DNA from: a virus
Strand: one strand, 5' to 3'
Length of the DNA stretch: 21,414 bases
IMG/VR virus record: IMGVR_UViG_3300027974_000186
Location: 1 to 21,414 of that record
Both the position numbers and the translations under genes were made by a program. Shown here one piece after another: positions 3,153-15,202 of this stretch. Under the pieces are notes generated by a model. It did no database searches, was not told the DNA's origin, and worked only from the letters and a program-made list of their open reading frames with translations. Positions within the stretch are counted from its first letter, which is position 1, and each line of letters begins with the position of its first letter.

Positions 3153-5732
3153 TTAAGGATTAGGATTGATTCCAGTGCCAGTGCTGACACCAAACTTTTC
3201 ACCGCTTATGATCTCAGCTTGCGCAAGTTGCATTGCTGTTTGATTATCTGCGGCATTCATACGCTCTCTTGCCTGCATTTCAGCAGCAGAGCGTTGATTT
3301 TCTACTTGCGCTTCAAATGCAGCTTGTTTTGCATTTGCCATTTCACGTTGTGCATCACGTTGCATCTCCATCATGTTTTCTTGAGCAGCTAATTGAAGTT
3401 TTGCTTTTTCAAGTTCTTGTGATTGTTGCATTCTGGCTTGATCAGTTTGTTGCGACTGTTGTAATTTAGCTTGTTCAATTTGCAATTTATCCTGATCAGA
3501 TTGCGCACGTTGTTGCATCGCAGCCTGTTGTGTTTGCGCGTTGAGCTGTGCAACCTGCATGGTGTTATCGGGTGGCAATTGTGGTTGTGGTTTGTACTGC
3601 TGTGCTTCTTGCGTAATCGTTGCAAGCTCTTGACCAAAACCATCTAATTGTTGCTCGATAAATTGTTGCACTTTCATCATCAAGCTAACTTGCTCAGATA
3701 CATCATTGCCAATCACATCATCTTTTTCTGCCTTAGATGCTGCTTTGTGTGATTCGGTTAAATAATAATTCAATAGATGATCACGCAAGTGAAGTGAAAT
3801 AGGATAAAGGTAGTTTGTAATGATAGCAGGATTTCTGCCAAACAAGGGTGACTGCAAAAATGCCATGTGCGTCATCAAGTGACCTAGATGATCTTGTTTG
3901 GGTAGCACATAGATTGGTCTTCCCATTGACGCTGCAACATTTTCGGAAATAGGATCCATATCCTCTTTTCCGGGTTCGGGTTGCAAGTAATCATCAGCCG
4001 ATAACTTCATGACCGTTAAGAACGCTTCCTCAACTTTGCGTTGATTGTACATCTGCGGGAACAATTGCGAGCGTTGCAAAATCGCTTGGTTTTGTGCAAA
4101 GCGTTGCGTTTCACTAAAGATAGCAGGATCACTGACTGGGATGATGTCCATCGGACCATCAAAGTCTGACGGATCAATTTCAAGTCCAGCTTCGTATGCT
4201 TTCAAGTCTTCAACGGTTAGGTACGCAGAGTTGATGCGATGCAATACTTTCAGAACGCGATCCATCGAGTTGTGCAAACGCGCATGAATTGAGCTAAATA
4301 CCACCATACCTTGTTCAATCAATGCCATCGTCGTGCCAACGGGTTGATTAGGATTTTGATCAGATAGCTTCTCAAACGATGTTTGAATCACGCCTTTGCC
4401 AGCATCCACTAAAAATCCAAGCAAACTAAACAGCACAGGTGATGGGCCGTTAAATGGCAGTGGCATGGCAATTTTGCGCACGTCATCCACCATTGCGCCA
4501 CCATCAAGCTCAACAACTTCTGTTGGTTGCACGTTGATAGTCTGACCGTTAGGACCGCCTTTGAGCTTTAGTAGCGTTGGCACGTTTTGAATGTGCGCTG
4601 AATCAAGCAATGCACGCAATGCACCAGTAGCCGCACCTGACAAGCCACCAATCATTTGTGTCAAACTAATTGGATAAGCACCACGCCAAGGAACGAATGG
4701 GAACTCAATAATCCAGTCTAGCTCTTTTCTGTTTTCATCGTCCGGCTCCCAGTTTCTGTAGAGTGCAACGCCTTCGCTGGTTGTTTTGTCGATGCTTAAG
4801 ATATATGGCTCCATGCCATCGCCAAAGTCTAAATATGTGTAGACTTCAAAAATGGTGCGAAGTCCATCCTCGTTGTAGCTGCTTTCCTTTCTGCCTTCAA
4901 TCTTGTCGTTGGCTTGTGATGCTTTACTAAACTCAGGATCACTTGCGTAACCCAAGTCAACATCGATATACATACCCGCTTTAACGCGACGCGCATATTC
5001 CATCTTAGTGATGTATTGCACATGCGTTTTGCGCTCTGCCGTATAAAAGTTGGTTGCAGCGAACGGCAGGTAAACGTCTTCAATAGCGATAAACTCCGCT
5101 TGTGGTCGCTTGTACTGATTGTTCCACATCAACTTGAGGTATTGACCACCGCCAAGTGGTAACTGCGTGCTAAGTTGCTCTAACTCACCTCTGAACTCAG
5201 GCATCTGCTCAGTTAGCTGCCAGTTCATAAAGTCAGCTTTACGCTGTGCCTTTGCAAGTTTTTCTTTTTCTTGCTCGCCTAGTATCTTTGTTTTGACAGG
5301 ACCGTTAGCTGGGAAGATCTCTTTCATCACACGCGCAGAGAAATCCACGCACGCTTCGACAAGCATTGGATGTACTACTTTGTTTGCACCGGTGAACTGT
5401 GCGCCACCTGGTGCATCATCACCAAGACCTGTTCTGCGCAATCCTTCTTCATATTGCTTGTCGCGTTTCTCGCGTGCTTCTTTATCACGATCAATCTTTT
5501 CAAGTAGATCCTCAATCATGTCAGACAAGTCTGACTGATCTACCTCATCGATGATATTAGCAAAGTGCGCTGATTGTTCTTTTTCGTCTTTATCGTTTTT
5601 TAACTTAAGAATAGCACCGCCATCCTCTGTGTCTTCAATGTCAGATTCTTCGTCTGGATCAAACTCTACGTCTTCACCTTCCAACTCGTCTTCATCATCA
5701 TCAATGTAATCGTCTTCAATTTTCTTAGCCAT
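3153..5732 (-). CDS. Portal protein
   Basis: This encodes 859 aa with AGAGG 6 nt before the ATG. The portal forms the dodecameric ring at one head vertex through which DNA is packaged and ejected. The first ~65 residues are strongly acidic. The core includes 'VDFSARVMKEIFPANGPVKTKI' (~129-150) and 'IEFPFVPWRGAYPISLTQMIGGLSGAATGALRALLDSAHIQN', typical of large portals of podovirus-like phages. Residues ~690-835 are an unusually Gln-rich helical segment ('TQQAAMQQRAQSDQDKLQIE', 'LQQSQQTDQARMQQSQELEK'), which could be the long C-terminal barrel helix reaching into the head. The gene overlaps the upstream 1283-aa gene by 8 nt and lies in the terminase-portal-scaffold-capsid order. Identification rests on the core sequence and position. 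Confidence 0.85.
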   Translation of the reverse strand: MAKKIEDDYIDDDEDELEGEDVEFDPDEESDIEDTEDGGAILKLKNDKDEKEQSAHFANIIDEVDQSDLSDMIEDLLEKIDRDKEAREKRDKQYEEGLRRTGLGDDAPGGAQFTGANKVVHPMLVEACVDFSARVMKEIFPANGPVKTKILGEQEKEKLAKAQRKADFMNWQLTEQMPEFRGELEQLSTQLPLGGGQYLKLMWNNQYKRPQAEFIAIEDVYLPFAATNFYTAERKTHVQYITKMEYARRVKAGMYIDVDLGYASDPEFSKASQANDKIEGRKESSYNEDGLRTIFEVYTYLDFGDGMEPYILSIDKTTSEGVALYRNWEPDDENRKELDWIIEFPFVPWRGAYPISLTQMIGGLSGAATGALRALLDSAHIQNVPTLLKLKGGPNGQTINVQPTEVVELDGGAMVDDVRKIAMPLPFNGPSPVLFSLLGFLVDAGKGVIQTSFEKLSDQNPNQPVGTTMALIEQGMVVFSSIHARLHNSMDRVLKVLHRINSAYLTVEDLKAYEAGLEIDPSDFDGPMDIIPVSDPAIFSETQRFAQNQAILQRSQLFPQMYNQRKVEEAFLTVMKLSADDYLQPEPGKEDMDPISENVAASMGRPIYVLPKQDHLGHLMTHMAFLQSPLFGRNPAIITNYLYPISLHLRDHLLNYYLTESHKAASKAEKDDVIGNDVSEQVSLMMKVQQFIEQQLDGFGQELATITQEAQQYKPQPQLPPDNTMQVAQLNAQTQQAAMQQRAQSDQDKLQIEQAKLQQSQQTDQARMQQSQELEKAKLQLAAQENMMEMQRDAQREMANAKQAAFEAQVENQRSAAEMQARERMNAADNQTAMQLAQAEIISGEKFGVSTGTGINPNP

Positions 5733-12343: not shown

Positions 12344-12445
12344 GTAAGATCCTTGATATGGTAAGACATCACGCTAGGTAATTGACTGCTTTCCGCCTAG
12401 CGCAATTAAAATGAAAACCGAAAAATGAACACGATAGCTTATCAG

Positions 12446-12631
12446 ACTATCACTAAAAGCACTGTTTACTACCCCATGACAATCAGTTACATTCTGCCCT
12501 ATGTCATTAGTAAACTACCGTTACCGGTAATCTTAACCCGTGTGGATCGTGTAGCTAGTACGATTTATCCACTTTAAAGGCTGCAAGGTTGCGAATTGCG
12601 GTACGCGACAAGCAATGCTTTTAGTGATAGT
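12446..12631. repeat. 16-bp inverted repeat closing a 154-nt domain
   Basis: ACTATCACTAAAAGCA (12446-12461) is the exact reverse complement of 12616-12631. The intervening 154 nt hold at least two further hairpins (12464-12515 and 12542-12572). In an RNA this would be a closing helix of a multibranch domain. GTTACCGGT occurs at 12520-12528 and again at 12630-12638. Confidence 0.8.
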
Positions 12632-12742
12632 TACCGGTGCTGATCTCCGGCTTAGTGTTATTTGGTGGTGTACTTTCAACCACTCCCAAGTTTCCTATTT
12701 GCACCGACGTGCCATTACCGCTGCGTATCAGCCTACGCATTA

Positions 12743-12845
12743 ACTATCAAGTCATAACAGGTGAGGACTTACACCATAGAGCGTCAGTTGTCATTGTACC
12801 AATGACCGCGACCACCTTAGAGCCAGTCTGTTATGACTTGATAGT
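12743..12845. repeat. 18-bp perfect inverted repeat with internal hairpin
   Basis: ACTATCAAGTCATAACAG (12743-12760) is the exact reverse complement of 12828-12845. The 67-nt interior includes the 7-bp hairpin GTCATTG-TAC-CAATGAC (12790-12806), flanked by GCG (12781-12783) and CGC (12807-12809), which can extend it across a 6-nt bulge. There is no poly-T after either arm, so this is not a simple terminator. Confidence 0.85.
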
Positions 12846-12930
12846 GCTTGTCTTTCCAAGCTGTCACCACCCAAGCCAGCTATTGATAAATCGCCAAAAA
12901 TAAAAATACTGGTTTGTGGTGGACATAAAC

Positions 12931-13089
12931 TTATTCATCGTCTTCGGGATGCTCTGGTGCTACTTTTTGAGCAATCATACTATCTGCAATAATATATGCA
13001 AGATTTGAAACGCTTTCATACGCCACACCAGATCCTCTTGCCAAAAGTCCTTCCATCGCGTGTGCCGCAAAAATATCTCTTAGATCCAT
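12931..13089 (-). CDS. Small 'LRDIFAAHAM' phage protein
   Basis: This encodes 52 aa (MDLRDIFAAHAMEGLLARGS...NLAYIIADSMIAQKVAPEHPEDDE). A GGGGA motif lies 9 nt before the ATG. The pattern 'M.LRD.FAA.AM.GL(L/I)A ... AY.IAD.M(L/I)' is one I recognise from small helical proteins in many tailed phages, function unknown. It is two short amphipathic helices plus an acidic tail, without a membrane segment. It is the first gene after the promoter, leader and terminator at 13103-13218, and it precedes the structured RNA region. Its leader position makes it a possible regulated leader gene. Confidence 0.7.
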   Translation of the reverse strand: MDLRDIFAAHAMEGLLARGSGVAYESVSNLAYIIADSMIAQKVAPEHPEDDE

Positions 13090-13102: not shown

Positions 13103-13172
13103 AAAAAAAAGCCTTATAAAATTTCCATCGAAAGAGAGCGAGAATTGGCTCATGGAAATAAAAAAGGCTTTT
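13103..13172 (-). terminator. Candidate Rho-independent terminator (stem B)
   Basis: AAAAGCCTT (13172-13164) pairs with AAGGCTTTT (13115-13107), and an inner 8-bp stem ATTTCCAT/ATGGAAAT (13159-13152 with 13128-13121) continues it. The minus-strand 3' arm ends in a run of eight Ts (13110-13103). The stem is low in GC, so it may terminate only partly. The plus-strand reading also ends in a short T-rich run (13169-13176), so it could act in both directions. Confidence 0.5.
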
Positions 13173-13199
13173 GTTTAAATTCTCGTTCATCGGCTTTCG
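13103..13199 (-). promoter_or_regulatory. Candidate attenuator leader with two competing stems
   Basis: In minus-strand order the leader reads CGAAAG (13199-13194), CGAGAATT (13185-13178), AAAAGCCTT (13172-13164), ATTTCCAT (13159-13152), AATTCTCG (13146-13139), CTTTCG (13134-13129), ATGGAAAT (13128-13121), AAGGCTTTT (13115-13107), TTTT (13106-13103). Stem A pairs the first two with AATTCTCG and CTTTCG. Stem B pairs AAAAGCCTT and ATTTCCAT with ATGGAAAT and AAGGCTTTT and is followed by a U-run. The stems interleave with only 5-nt, 5-nt and 0-nt connectors, too short to form both fully at once, so they should compete. A would be an antiterminator and B a terminator. This sits between an extended -10 promoter and the 52-aa gene. 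Confidence 0.55.
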
Positions 13200-13209
13200 A
13201 CCTGCACAT

Positions 13210-13218
13210 ATTATATCA
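13210..13218 (-). promoter_or_regulatory. Extended -10 promoter, leftward
   Basis: The minus strand reads TGATATAAT, a perfect extended -10 (TGn + TATAAT). No good -35 is seen at the normal distance, as is common for extended -10 promoters. The predicted start is near 13203, so the transcript would begin almost exactly at the first pairing segment of the leader (CGAAAG at 13199). It would feed the 52-aa gene, the structured region, phoH and the packaging genes. Confidence 0.5.
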
Positions 13219-13247
13219 CAACTAAAAACATACGAGCCACTATACAT

Positions 13248-13277
13248 ATATACACTGTTATAAATAACAGTGTATAT
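13248..13277. repeat. 14-bp-arm palindrome, operator candidate
   Basis: ATATACACTGTTAT (13248-13261) and ATAACAGTGTATAT (13264-13277) are perfect reverse complements separated by AA. It lies 30 bp upstream of the extended -10 of the leftward promoter, so it is well placed for a dimeric activator or repressor. A stem-loop is less likely because the loop is only 2 nt and no T-run follows. Confidence 0.7.
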
Positions 13278-13344
13278 GTATGTATACTATTAGGCTGACC
13301 ATATACAGTATACAAATGTATATGTATGTATATGTATGTATACT
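13272..13344. repeat. AT-rich short repeats (iteron-like)
   Basis: GTATATGTATGTATACT occurs at 13272-13288 and again at 13328-13344. A shorter copy (GTATATGTATGTATA) at 13318-13332 overlaps the second. TATG/TATAC units continue between them. The repeats lie directly after the primase/helicase gene and next to the palindrome at 13248-13277. They could be binding sites for a regulator or part of a replication origin, or simply low-complexity slippage sequence. Confidence 0.6.
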
Positions 13345-15202
13345 ATACTTTTTCCCAGTACCACTGCCCGTTATTCTCTACAAGTCCTTGTTTTATAAGC
13401 ATATCTACACCATCTCTAAACCACCCGGCGTGCCGTCCTGTATTTTTTGTGGCGTATACATCGTAGGCATGTGACTTCCATTGATCAAGCGTCACAACAT
13501 AGTGTTCTTTTTCTTCCAGTGTATACTTTCTGCCATCGACTTTTGTTTCATCAGCAGCCTTCTGTAAGCCTTCAAACGTCTGCTTTGTCTTGGTGTTTAG
13601 ATCCTCTTTTTTGTCTTCTTCTGCTACACCGATGTATTCAAGGTATACACCCTCAATTTGCTCCTCTGTATACTCATCATAAAAGCATTCTCCGTCAAGT
13701 GGCACAACCTTCAAGCCAAACTCCATATTGCTACCTGCTGCAAAATCCTTTGATTTGGTGCATGAGAAAGTAACCTCTCCCTTGGATTTCTTTGTCATAC
13801 AAAACTCTGCATCCATGCCTGCTTTAATTGCACTACTACCACGCGCACGACCCTTATCGCCATGACCACTGTGGTGAACCGTCACAATTGCGCTGGTGTA
13901 CTTCTTTGTGAGCATTTCAACATTTGATAGGTACATTGCCATGTCTTCAGAAGAATTCTCATCACCATGCATATTTCTGTGCAATGTATCAATAACAATG
14001 GCGTAAGGCTCTTGATCTGTTAGATCAGTAACGATTTGCATAATTTGCTGTACTGCATCAGCACTAATCATATTGACACTTTTTGTGCTAAAATAAATGT
14101 TATCTGGATCACGATTGTATTTCTGTTTTAGAGCTTGCATACGCATAGCCAAACCACGATGACCCTCACCCGCGATGTAGATGACTAGACCCTTCTTCGT
14201 CATTCGTCCGTGCCAGTTTATGCCATTCCCAATGCAAAATGCCCAGTCTAAAGCAACCAATGATTTGCACGCGCCAGATTCTCCAAAAAGTAATGTGCTG
14301 GATCCTCTTTCCAGCACATCTTTTATCACCCAATCCGCTGGCTTAATGTTTGCCATCAACTCTTTTACATGGATAAACAACTCTTGTTTTCTGCCACATA
14401 TGAGCTTTTGAACAGCGTCAATACCGTAATTAGCGGCCATGTCGTTAAAGTCTTCACCAACTGTTGGTGGATAAAGAACGTCAACACCACATTTCTTAGC
14501 TTTCTCAACGCCAATGCCTGACACGTCGTTATCAGCGCAAATGATAACTCGGCCCTTAAACTTATTGCGCACCATATCGCACACTGGCTTGAGATTGCCA
14601 GCGTTGAACGCGACGACCACGCAGTGTCCTGTTGCGGCATGTAGCGTCATACCTGTGGCAAAACCTTCTGCAATCAAAACAGTGTCGTCTGGTCGTCCAA
14701 TCATAAAGAAACCACCTTGCATCTTGCCGCCAGTGTAAAATCTTTTTTCACCATCTGACGCAATAAACTGCAATGATTGTATGTCTTCATCATCACCATA
14801 CACCGGCACAACAATTCGATCAGCGTACAGCTTCAAACCTTTGCAATTATCAATGCTTTTGCGCTTTAAATAATCATGTTCTTCAAGATCCGGTAGCTTT
14901 TCGTAAAGCTCCTGCGCGTTAAATGCGGCAGACGCATACGCAAAATCACGATCCTCTTTGGCTTTTTTTAATGCTTCTTCTCTGTCGTAATTATTAGATG
15001 ACGACTGACCATTAGCAAACCAATAATGTATCTCACCCGATTTCCAGTCACCATATGCGGCACCTAATCCATCTGCAAACATTGACACCCAACCAGACTT
15101 GTCTTTGCCGGTAGTTTGGAATCTTGTGATGGCTGAGTTCTTTATATATGGCGGAGGATTAAATCCAGCCGCACGGATTGCATCGAGTAATTCTTGACTC
15201 AT
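13343..15202 (-). CDS. Primase/helicase: TOPRIM plus RepA-like (AAA_25) ATPase
   Basis: This encodes 619 aa. The N-terminal ~100 residues ('GWVSMFADGLGAAYGDWKSGEIHYWF') resemble the entry domain of phage primases. A TOPRIM domain follows, with the EG pair at 179-180 ('LIAEGFATGMTLHAATG'), DND at 224-226 and a further Asp near 251. The helicase half has P-loop GESGACKS (307-314), Walker B 'AIVIDT' (401-406) and 'TVHHSGHGDKGRARGSSA' (441-458), as in RepA-like hexameric helicases. Cys replaces the usual Gly before the P-loop Lys; this position is known to vary in the subfamily. It would synthesise primers and unwind DNA at the replication fork. The ATG overlaps the stop of the 56-aa regulator (ATGA), so the two are co-transcribed. 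Confidence 0.88.
   Translation of the reverse strand: MSQELLDAIRAAGFNPPPYIKNSAITRFQTTGKDKSGWVSMFADGLGAAYGDWKSGEIHYWFANGQSSSNNYDREEALKKAKEDRDFAYASAAFNAQELYEKLPDLEEHDYLKRKSIDNCKGLKLYADRIVVPVYGDDEDIQSLQFIASDGEKRFYTGGKMQGGFFMIGRPDDTVLIAEGFATGMTLHAATGHCVVVAFNAGNLKPVCDMVRNKFKGRVIICADNDVSGIGVEKAKKCGVDVLYPPTVGEDFNDMAANYGIDAVQKLICGRKQELFIHVKELMANIKPADWVIKDVLERGSSTLLFGESGACKSLVALDWAFCIGNGINWHGRMTKKGLVIYIAGEGHRGLAMRMQALKQKYNRDPDNIYFSTKSVNMISADAVQQIMQIVTDLTDQEPYAIVIDTLHRNMHGDENSSEDMAMYLSNVEMLTKKYTSAIVTVHHSGHGDKGRARGSSAIKAGMDAEFCMTKKSKGEVTFSCTKSKDFAAGSNMEFGLKVVPLDGECFYDEYTEEQIEGVYLEYIGVAEEDKKEDLNTKTKQTFEGLQKAADETKVDGRKYTLEEKEHYVVTLDQWKSHAYDVYATKNTGRHAGWFRDGVDMLIKQGLVENNGQWYWEKV

Follow-up and report, generated by a model that had tools for sequence, protein, structure and literature searches.

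A hypervariable phage leader RNA with covarying helices, probably a cis-acting transcription attenuator

On the minus strand between primase and terminase genes, the phage DNA analysed here (the window: all 21,414 nt of positions 1 to 21,414 of IMG/VR record IMGVR_UViG_3300027974_000186) carries a short leader with its own predicted promoter, two 5′ segments of which are complementary to what lies inside the terminator hairpin that follows. Is this complementarity more than chance, and if so, what would it do? The earlier note had read the arrangement as a riboswitch or attenuator in which one stem excludes the other, and possibly as a late-gene timing switch for the packaging operon. The parts of the leader are as follows, its starts, stops and folds being predictions throughout.

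13218–13210, minus: extended −10 box TGATATAAT; predicted start at A13203, seven bases on
13203–13191, minus: P0, 5′ hairpin (AGG/CCG), weak in the window; its loop contains the P1 5′ strand
13201–13194, minus: P1 5′ strand, GTCGAAAG
13185–13178, minus: P2 5′ strand, CGAGAATT
13176–13169, minus: A-rich linker AAACAAAA, joining P2 to the terminator and able to pair with the U tract through its last four A
13172–13164 and 13115–13107, minus: outer stem of the terminator including the A4:U4 extension, AAAAGCCTT with AAGGCTTTT
13168–13164 and 13115–13111, minus: P3, core of the terminator, GCCTT with AAGGC
13159–13152 and 13128–13121, minus: P4, ATTTCCAT with ATGGAAAT
13151–13148 and 13139–13136, minus: P5, apical hairpin, GAGC with GCTC; its loop displays the P2 3′ strand
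13146–13139, minus: P2 3′ strand, AATTCTCG, in the loop of P5
13134–13127, minus: P1 3′ strand, CTTTCGAT, within the terminator between P5 and P4
13110–13103, minus: U8 tract of the intrinsic terminator (T8 in nearly all family members)
12931–13089, minus: first downstream gene, 52 amino acids, starting 13 nt past U8

The promoter and a start near 13203 are thus read much as first proposed, as is the second of the two 5′ segments, while the first comes out longer (13201–13194 rather than 13199–13194). The whole intrinsic terminator spans 13172–13103 on the minus strand, and the partners of P1 and P2 within it are the P5 loop and the interior between P5 and P4, not the arms of P3 or P4. The 52-amino-acid protein matches phrog_2201 weakly, with no Pfam match and no relative among named phages, and comparison of the window with named phages found no DNA similarity. 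Complementarity in the window alone is not decisive, chance being only modestly unlikely: against dinucleotide-shuffled terminator interiors we obtain p = 0.02 for P1 and p = 0.09 for P2, and the leader fold has a z of −2.4.

A search with the neighbouring PhoH protein led to 16 related loci, many of which carry a leader at the equivalent position with other letters and the same pairing. Pattern scans of IMG/VR raised the number of phage contigs carrying the leader to about 66, from which a structure filter left about 38 distinct leader RNAs, with one more contig coming from a Methylomonas MAG. The TTTTTTATGRGTAAAAWTTATG pattern alone picks up mostly ordinary terminators, and the invariance of the linker is partly a matter of ascertainment, because most scans required AAACAAAA; members without the exact linker include L208, which has nine A, and the second copy in L153, which has AAACAAAT and a matching A before its U tract. 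The contigs that carry the leader are metagenomic, and from their sample identifiers we take the leader-bearing phages to be largely freshwater. The Methylomonas member (L116, G007:C53) comes from a phage-like contig of 54.6 kb assigned to that MAG, which hints at a host; it is the one real match in a scan of bacterial genomes, the other 29 stretches lacking the full motif, and among 200 related Methylomonadaceae genomes no second member of the family was recognised. The nearest relatives of TerL are in Roseobacter phages (47%). At the gathering score, Rfam (release 15) gave no matches in the window or in 13 relatives, and at E ≤ 10 the only match over the window leader was a weak one to the trpB motif (E 4.7); the leader RNA is an element absent from Rfam and common to many phages.

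The relatives also allowed both stems to be examined for covariation. A MAFFT alignment (A1) misaligned the helices and was replaced by a structure-anchored alignment of 20 members (A2), scored over six helices with pseudoknots allowed. Because A2 follows structure (it leans towards it, and is padded without true gaps), weight falls on the controls, shuffled and slid, and on a scan blind to sequence. In A2, 99.4% of pair cells are paired against a shuffled mean of 65.8%, and 237 cells are changed on both sides against 75.7, shuffle counts that are not probabilities because related sequences are not independent; the covariation score is 0.735, against 0.187 when shuffled and at most 0.083 with partners slid by 1–3 columns. 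The two interleaved helices are fully paired (P1: 8 of 8 pairs at 100%, six with changes on both sides; P2: 100% of cells, nine pairs changed on both sides), as are P3, with an exchange of GCC/GGC for CCG/CGG, and P4, with double changes in seven pairs. P5 is paired in 98.8% of cells, with double changes in all four pairs, and P0, which has 4–5 bp in most relatives, in 95.5%, also with covariation. Similarly, among the 30 distinct RNAs of the first set, 222/222 cells of P1 and 237/237 of P2 are paired across 13 haplotypes of the P1 5′ strand and 22 of the P2 5′ strand. The sequence-blind descriptor, which requires a terminator with two colinear interior helices and nothing else, matches 24 distinct places in 2.07 Mb of sequence, whereas two controls gave one apiece. 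The family-wide pairing is beyond chance and the observation is real; the earlier note had held that conservation of only one stem would count against it, and both are conserved. Outside the helices, only two things are conserved, the A-rich linker and, in the loop of P0, a GU: the P1 5′ strand starts with GU in 13/13 haplotypes and has a purine at position 4 in 11/13.

The promoter and spacing of the leader are conserved, and the genes that follow it are varied. A TATAAT −10 box is present in 28 of 30 members, with one mismatch in the other two, and lies 6–8 nt upstream of P0 in 30/30, while the extended-TG motif seen in the window is not general in the family. The first gene usually starts 13–14 nt beyond U8, so that there is no room for a second promoter. 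These first genes include the 52-amino-acid unknown of the window, a 105-amino-acid unknown, HNH and GIY-YIG nucleases, Ant/Rha antirepressors and a methyltransferase. Beside the position between primase and terminase, the leader occurs in replication operons ahead of a helicase (L058, L146), antisense between portal and head genes (L062, L067, L043, L166) and, in L003, continuing directly into a noncoding region with no intervening gene. Because downstream genes and positions vary in this way, the element is better described as a portable promoter–attenuator cassette than as a packaging-operon timer, and the timing role first suggested for it is not general.

Nested fold energies, which ignore pseudoknots, show how the two sets of helices could alternate. 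In a transcript ending at the P1 3′ strand, the fold with P1 and P2 lies 0 to about 4 kcal/mol above the minimum; at full length, 29/30 RNAs have the terminator as their minimum-energy fold or near it. The two folds thus exchange rank in energy as the RNA lengthens. The competition is topological, because P1/P2 and the arms of P3/P4 share almost no nucleotides. With A4:U4 zipped, 4–7 nt are left, with a reach of 25–44 Å for a distance of 45–64 Å; with the GC core alone, 8–11 nt reach 50–69 Å, against 34–53 Å plus internal loops. On these modelled distances P2 is sterically incompatible with the fully zipped terminator, and P2 and the GC core might partially coexist as a pseudoknot. The original argument from short linkers, by which the stems exclude each other, therefore applies to the zipped terminator and not to the GC core alone.

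We consider it probable that the leader, with a promoter of its own, acts in cis to attenuate transcription. RNA synthesis would begin at about 13203, and the 5′ strands of P1 and P2, made first, would pair with the interior of the terminator hairpin while it emerges, a stage at which P1 + P2 is predicted to be the best fold or near it. As the 3′ arms emerge, the P3–P4–P5 hairpin would become the more stable and polymerase would be released at U8, 13 nt ahead of the start codon of the first gene. The outcome of this race would set the output: if P1/P2 hold, polymerase would read through into the gene, and if they are displaced or blocked, a leader RNA of ~95 nt would be released. We infer that P1 and P2 would counteract termination in the cell. 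The conserved promoter, terminator, spacing and fold energies, together with covariation in both alternative pairings, back the attenuator; a promoter, leader and terminator precede the first gene, and a conserved structure competes with that terminator, and the attenuator logic of the earlier note is supported. Against it, P1/P2 share almost no nucleotides with P3/P4, unlike textbook antiterminators, and 5′ strands that pair with a hairpin interior are a topology unlike that of textbook attenuators. P0 and P5 are, moreover, kept though they oppose P1/P2, and a simple race in cis needs neither. Because P0 and P5 present the P1/P2 strands in loops, the race is most likely tipped by a second RNA or an RNA-binding factor rather than by a metabolite. 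Two facts, the retention of these loop-presenting hairpins and a P1 loop strand that always begins with GU, suggest RNA recognition.

Such recognition could be of the leader by itself. It is conceivable, and we put it forward tentatively, that the leader, once terminated, works as a small RNA in trans, binding nascent leaders of its own allele and causing them to terminate, with contacts at the loops of P0 and P5 and at the free strand of P2, giving a copy-number-like negative feedback or an incompatibility between related phages; it may itself be the trigger of the attenuator in cis. The conserved stems P0 and P5 hold both recognition strands in loops, the GU start and the purine at position 4 of the P1 5′ strand resemble a U-turn-like loop, and there are precedents in IsrK acting on its own read-through mRNA and in the P4 CI RNA (PMC4825925), as well as in pT181 attenuation (PMC4878617). 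The alleles of the leader also bear on this reading. Phages in which the sequence immediately flanking the leader mostly differs by 0–9% have leaders that are 18–35% divergent: in L042 and L064, which are 94% identical over 5 kb, the flanks differ at 0/113 and 0/150 positions and the leader at 32/101, and in L004/L038, L008/L116, L019/L026 and L019/L036 the leader is 22–29% different with flanks mostly below 9%, the downstream flank of L019/L036 (12.8%) being the exception. In most pairs the leader ranks with the most divergent windows: for six pairs, other windows as divergent as the leader number 0/250, 1/298, 2/727, 0/194, 16/246 and 18/467. The case of L003/L011, whose downstream genes are unlike, is weaker, as 62/565 windows match the divergence of the leader. 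The stem changes between alleles are compensated sets, and in 3/3 contigs with two copies (L043, G012, L153) P1/P2 differ between the copies. Drift with slow compensation is not expected to produce such a pattern, and either allele exchange or selection on pairing specificity would; exchange by recombination could come about with no selection on specificity. Covariation cannot tell cis from trans, because both use the same complementarity, and a search elsewhere in the window for antisense 10-mers or a second, antisense-like copy of the leader returned short chance matches only. The fuller version, in which the terminated leader forces identical nascent leaders to stop through its two displayed loops and the alleles diversify as incompatibility groups do, is slightly more speculative again.

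It is rather unlikely that the leader is instead a single stable pseudoknotted small RNA in which all helices form together, with the terminator as its 3′-end, no switching and a fixed fraction of read-through. The fact that nucleotides have nearly one partner each would suit such a fold, as would the almost constant length (8–9 nt) of the linker from P2 to P3, as expected for a crossing loop. The distances given above forbid P2 alongside the fully zipped terminator, however, and P2 would be strained, as it pairs 7–10 nt within a P5 loop of about equal size; nor would a free small RNA need a fixed spacing of 13–14 nt to a start codon.

The order of promoter, short leader, terminator and packaging genes in the window type also recalls phage lambda, where the pR′ promoter, the 6S RNA leader and the tR′ terminator precede genes that need read-through. 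Control there is exerted by protein Q at DNA sites and does not require covarying RNA stems. A late switch of this type, in which a phage antiterminator protein loads at the leader promoter and overrides the terminator, seems improbable: the covarying stems would be superfluous to Q-type action, many copies of the leader do not precede late genes, the late position being found in some phages only, and no Q-like gene was seen among the ORFs checked.

A ligand-binding riboswitch, as the earlier note had entertained, fares worse, and we think it very improbable. Terminator-embedded switching with a possible pseudoknot is known from the HMP-PP riboswitch (PMC6478431), but a metabolite riboswitch is disfavoured here because almost nothing unpaired is conserved, so that no pocket is visible outside the helices; downstream genes of the relatives showed no metabolic association, and the 14 sources searched gave no Rfam match. 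An ordinary terminator with chance complementarity, for which the p of P2 in the window alone would speak, is scarcely credible and is refuted by the family-wide covariation and by the 24 places to one of the sequence-blind scan. A leader-peptide attenuator of the trp type was ruled out separately, as 25/30 leaders have no open frame running through them.

Several neighbouring features are of interest in their own right. Between the 52-amino-acid gene and PhoH lie ~590 nt of noncoding DNA (12344–12930, minus strand), a neighbour outside the attenuator, with a minimum free energy of −187.4 against −156.9 when shuffled (z −4.2) and no Rfam match. This region is modular in relatives, with two segments swapped in order in L005, L006, L007, L009, L011 and L015, and may, on its modelled fold, represent a new structured RNA of large size. 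Immediately upstream of the promoter (13233–13350, minus strand) are AT-rich ATAC/TATG repeats and an inverted repeat, replaced in relatives by a long G+C-rich hairpin. At about 3780–4170 (minus strand) of L043, a leader with a small ORF (phrog_1273) lies antisense between portal and head gene in the manner of a moron, and another leader allele on that contig drives the terminase side. On the contig of L070, a look-alike (L241, about 380–500) has, after a TATAAT, an 11-nt strand GTCAAGTTATA that pairs with a terminator loop just before an ORF; its sequence is unrelated and without AAACAAAA, it may be due to chance, and it is unproven because a broader descriptor (one long helix of 5′ strand and loop) did no better than controls (four matches against three). 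The TerL ORF of L079 (897 amino acids) has a long insertion that is intein-like (Hint-type sequence) in translation.

Support from covariation is unusually strong for this widely shared phage RNA, and hypervariable, compensated pairing beside almost unchanged promoters and genes predicts selection on the specificity of RNA–RNA pairing. If action in trans is true, the leader would amount to a system of incompatibility between phages based on RNA, and its alleles could readily supply orthogonal transcription switches. Specifically, if the leader is its own antisense, expression would depend on the number of identical cassettes under transcription, and co-infecting phages of the same allele would silence each other's cassette.

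Known systems share parts of this anatomy. In homing endonuclease genes of the T4 family, RNA structure before the first codon likewise restrains cargo such as HNH and GIY-YIG nucleases, but those hairpins hide the ribosome site and act on translation (PMC2988022), whereas the phage leader places a terminator upstream of an exposed ribosome site. IsrK of the Gifsy-1 prophage has a phage promoter, a short RNA ended by a terminator, partial read-through and an antirepressor downstream, and its short form is reported to act in trans on its own long form; it regulates translation of orf45/anrP, however, and its anatomy differs from that of the phage leader (PMC4825925). In P4 immunity, RNA–RNA pairing in a phage leader also decides premature termination, but there the transcript is processed to give the CI RNA, whose partners are seqA/seqC (PMC4825925), whereas here a single unit of 95 nt contains the complementary parts along with an intrinsic terminator of its own. 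The repC attenuator of pT181 similarly sets a leader terminator against an antiterminator, with recognition opening by kissing of hairpin loops (PMC4878617). In pT181 the agent is a separate antisense RNA with complementarity to the leader (PMC4878617), no antisense gene having been seen for the phage leader among 10-mer matches elsewhere in the window, and the antiterminator takes the 5′ arm of the terminator as its partner, whereas P1/P2 pair with the terminator interior. Finally, the HMP-PP (thiS) riboswitch is a terminator-embedded aptamer (PMC6478431) with a strictly conserved pocket and thiamin genes, whereas the phage leader is hypervariable with only its pairing kept, and neither a conserved pocket nor thiamin gene neighbours were seen among the phage leaders. 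Both are nonetheless compact switches, or in the phage case a probable one, set within an intrinsic terminator directly ahead of a gene, and in both the alternative fold, possibly pseudoknotted, is incompatible with the complete terminator (PMC6478431); it is this riboswitch that the leader most resembles in architecture.
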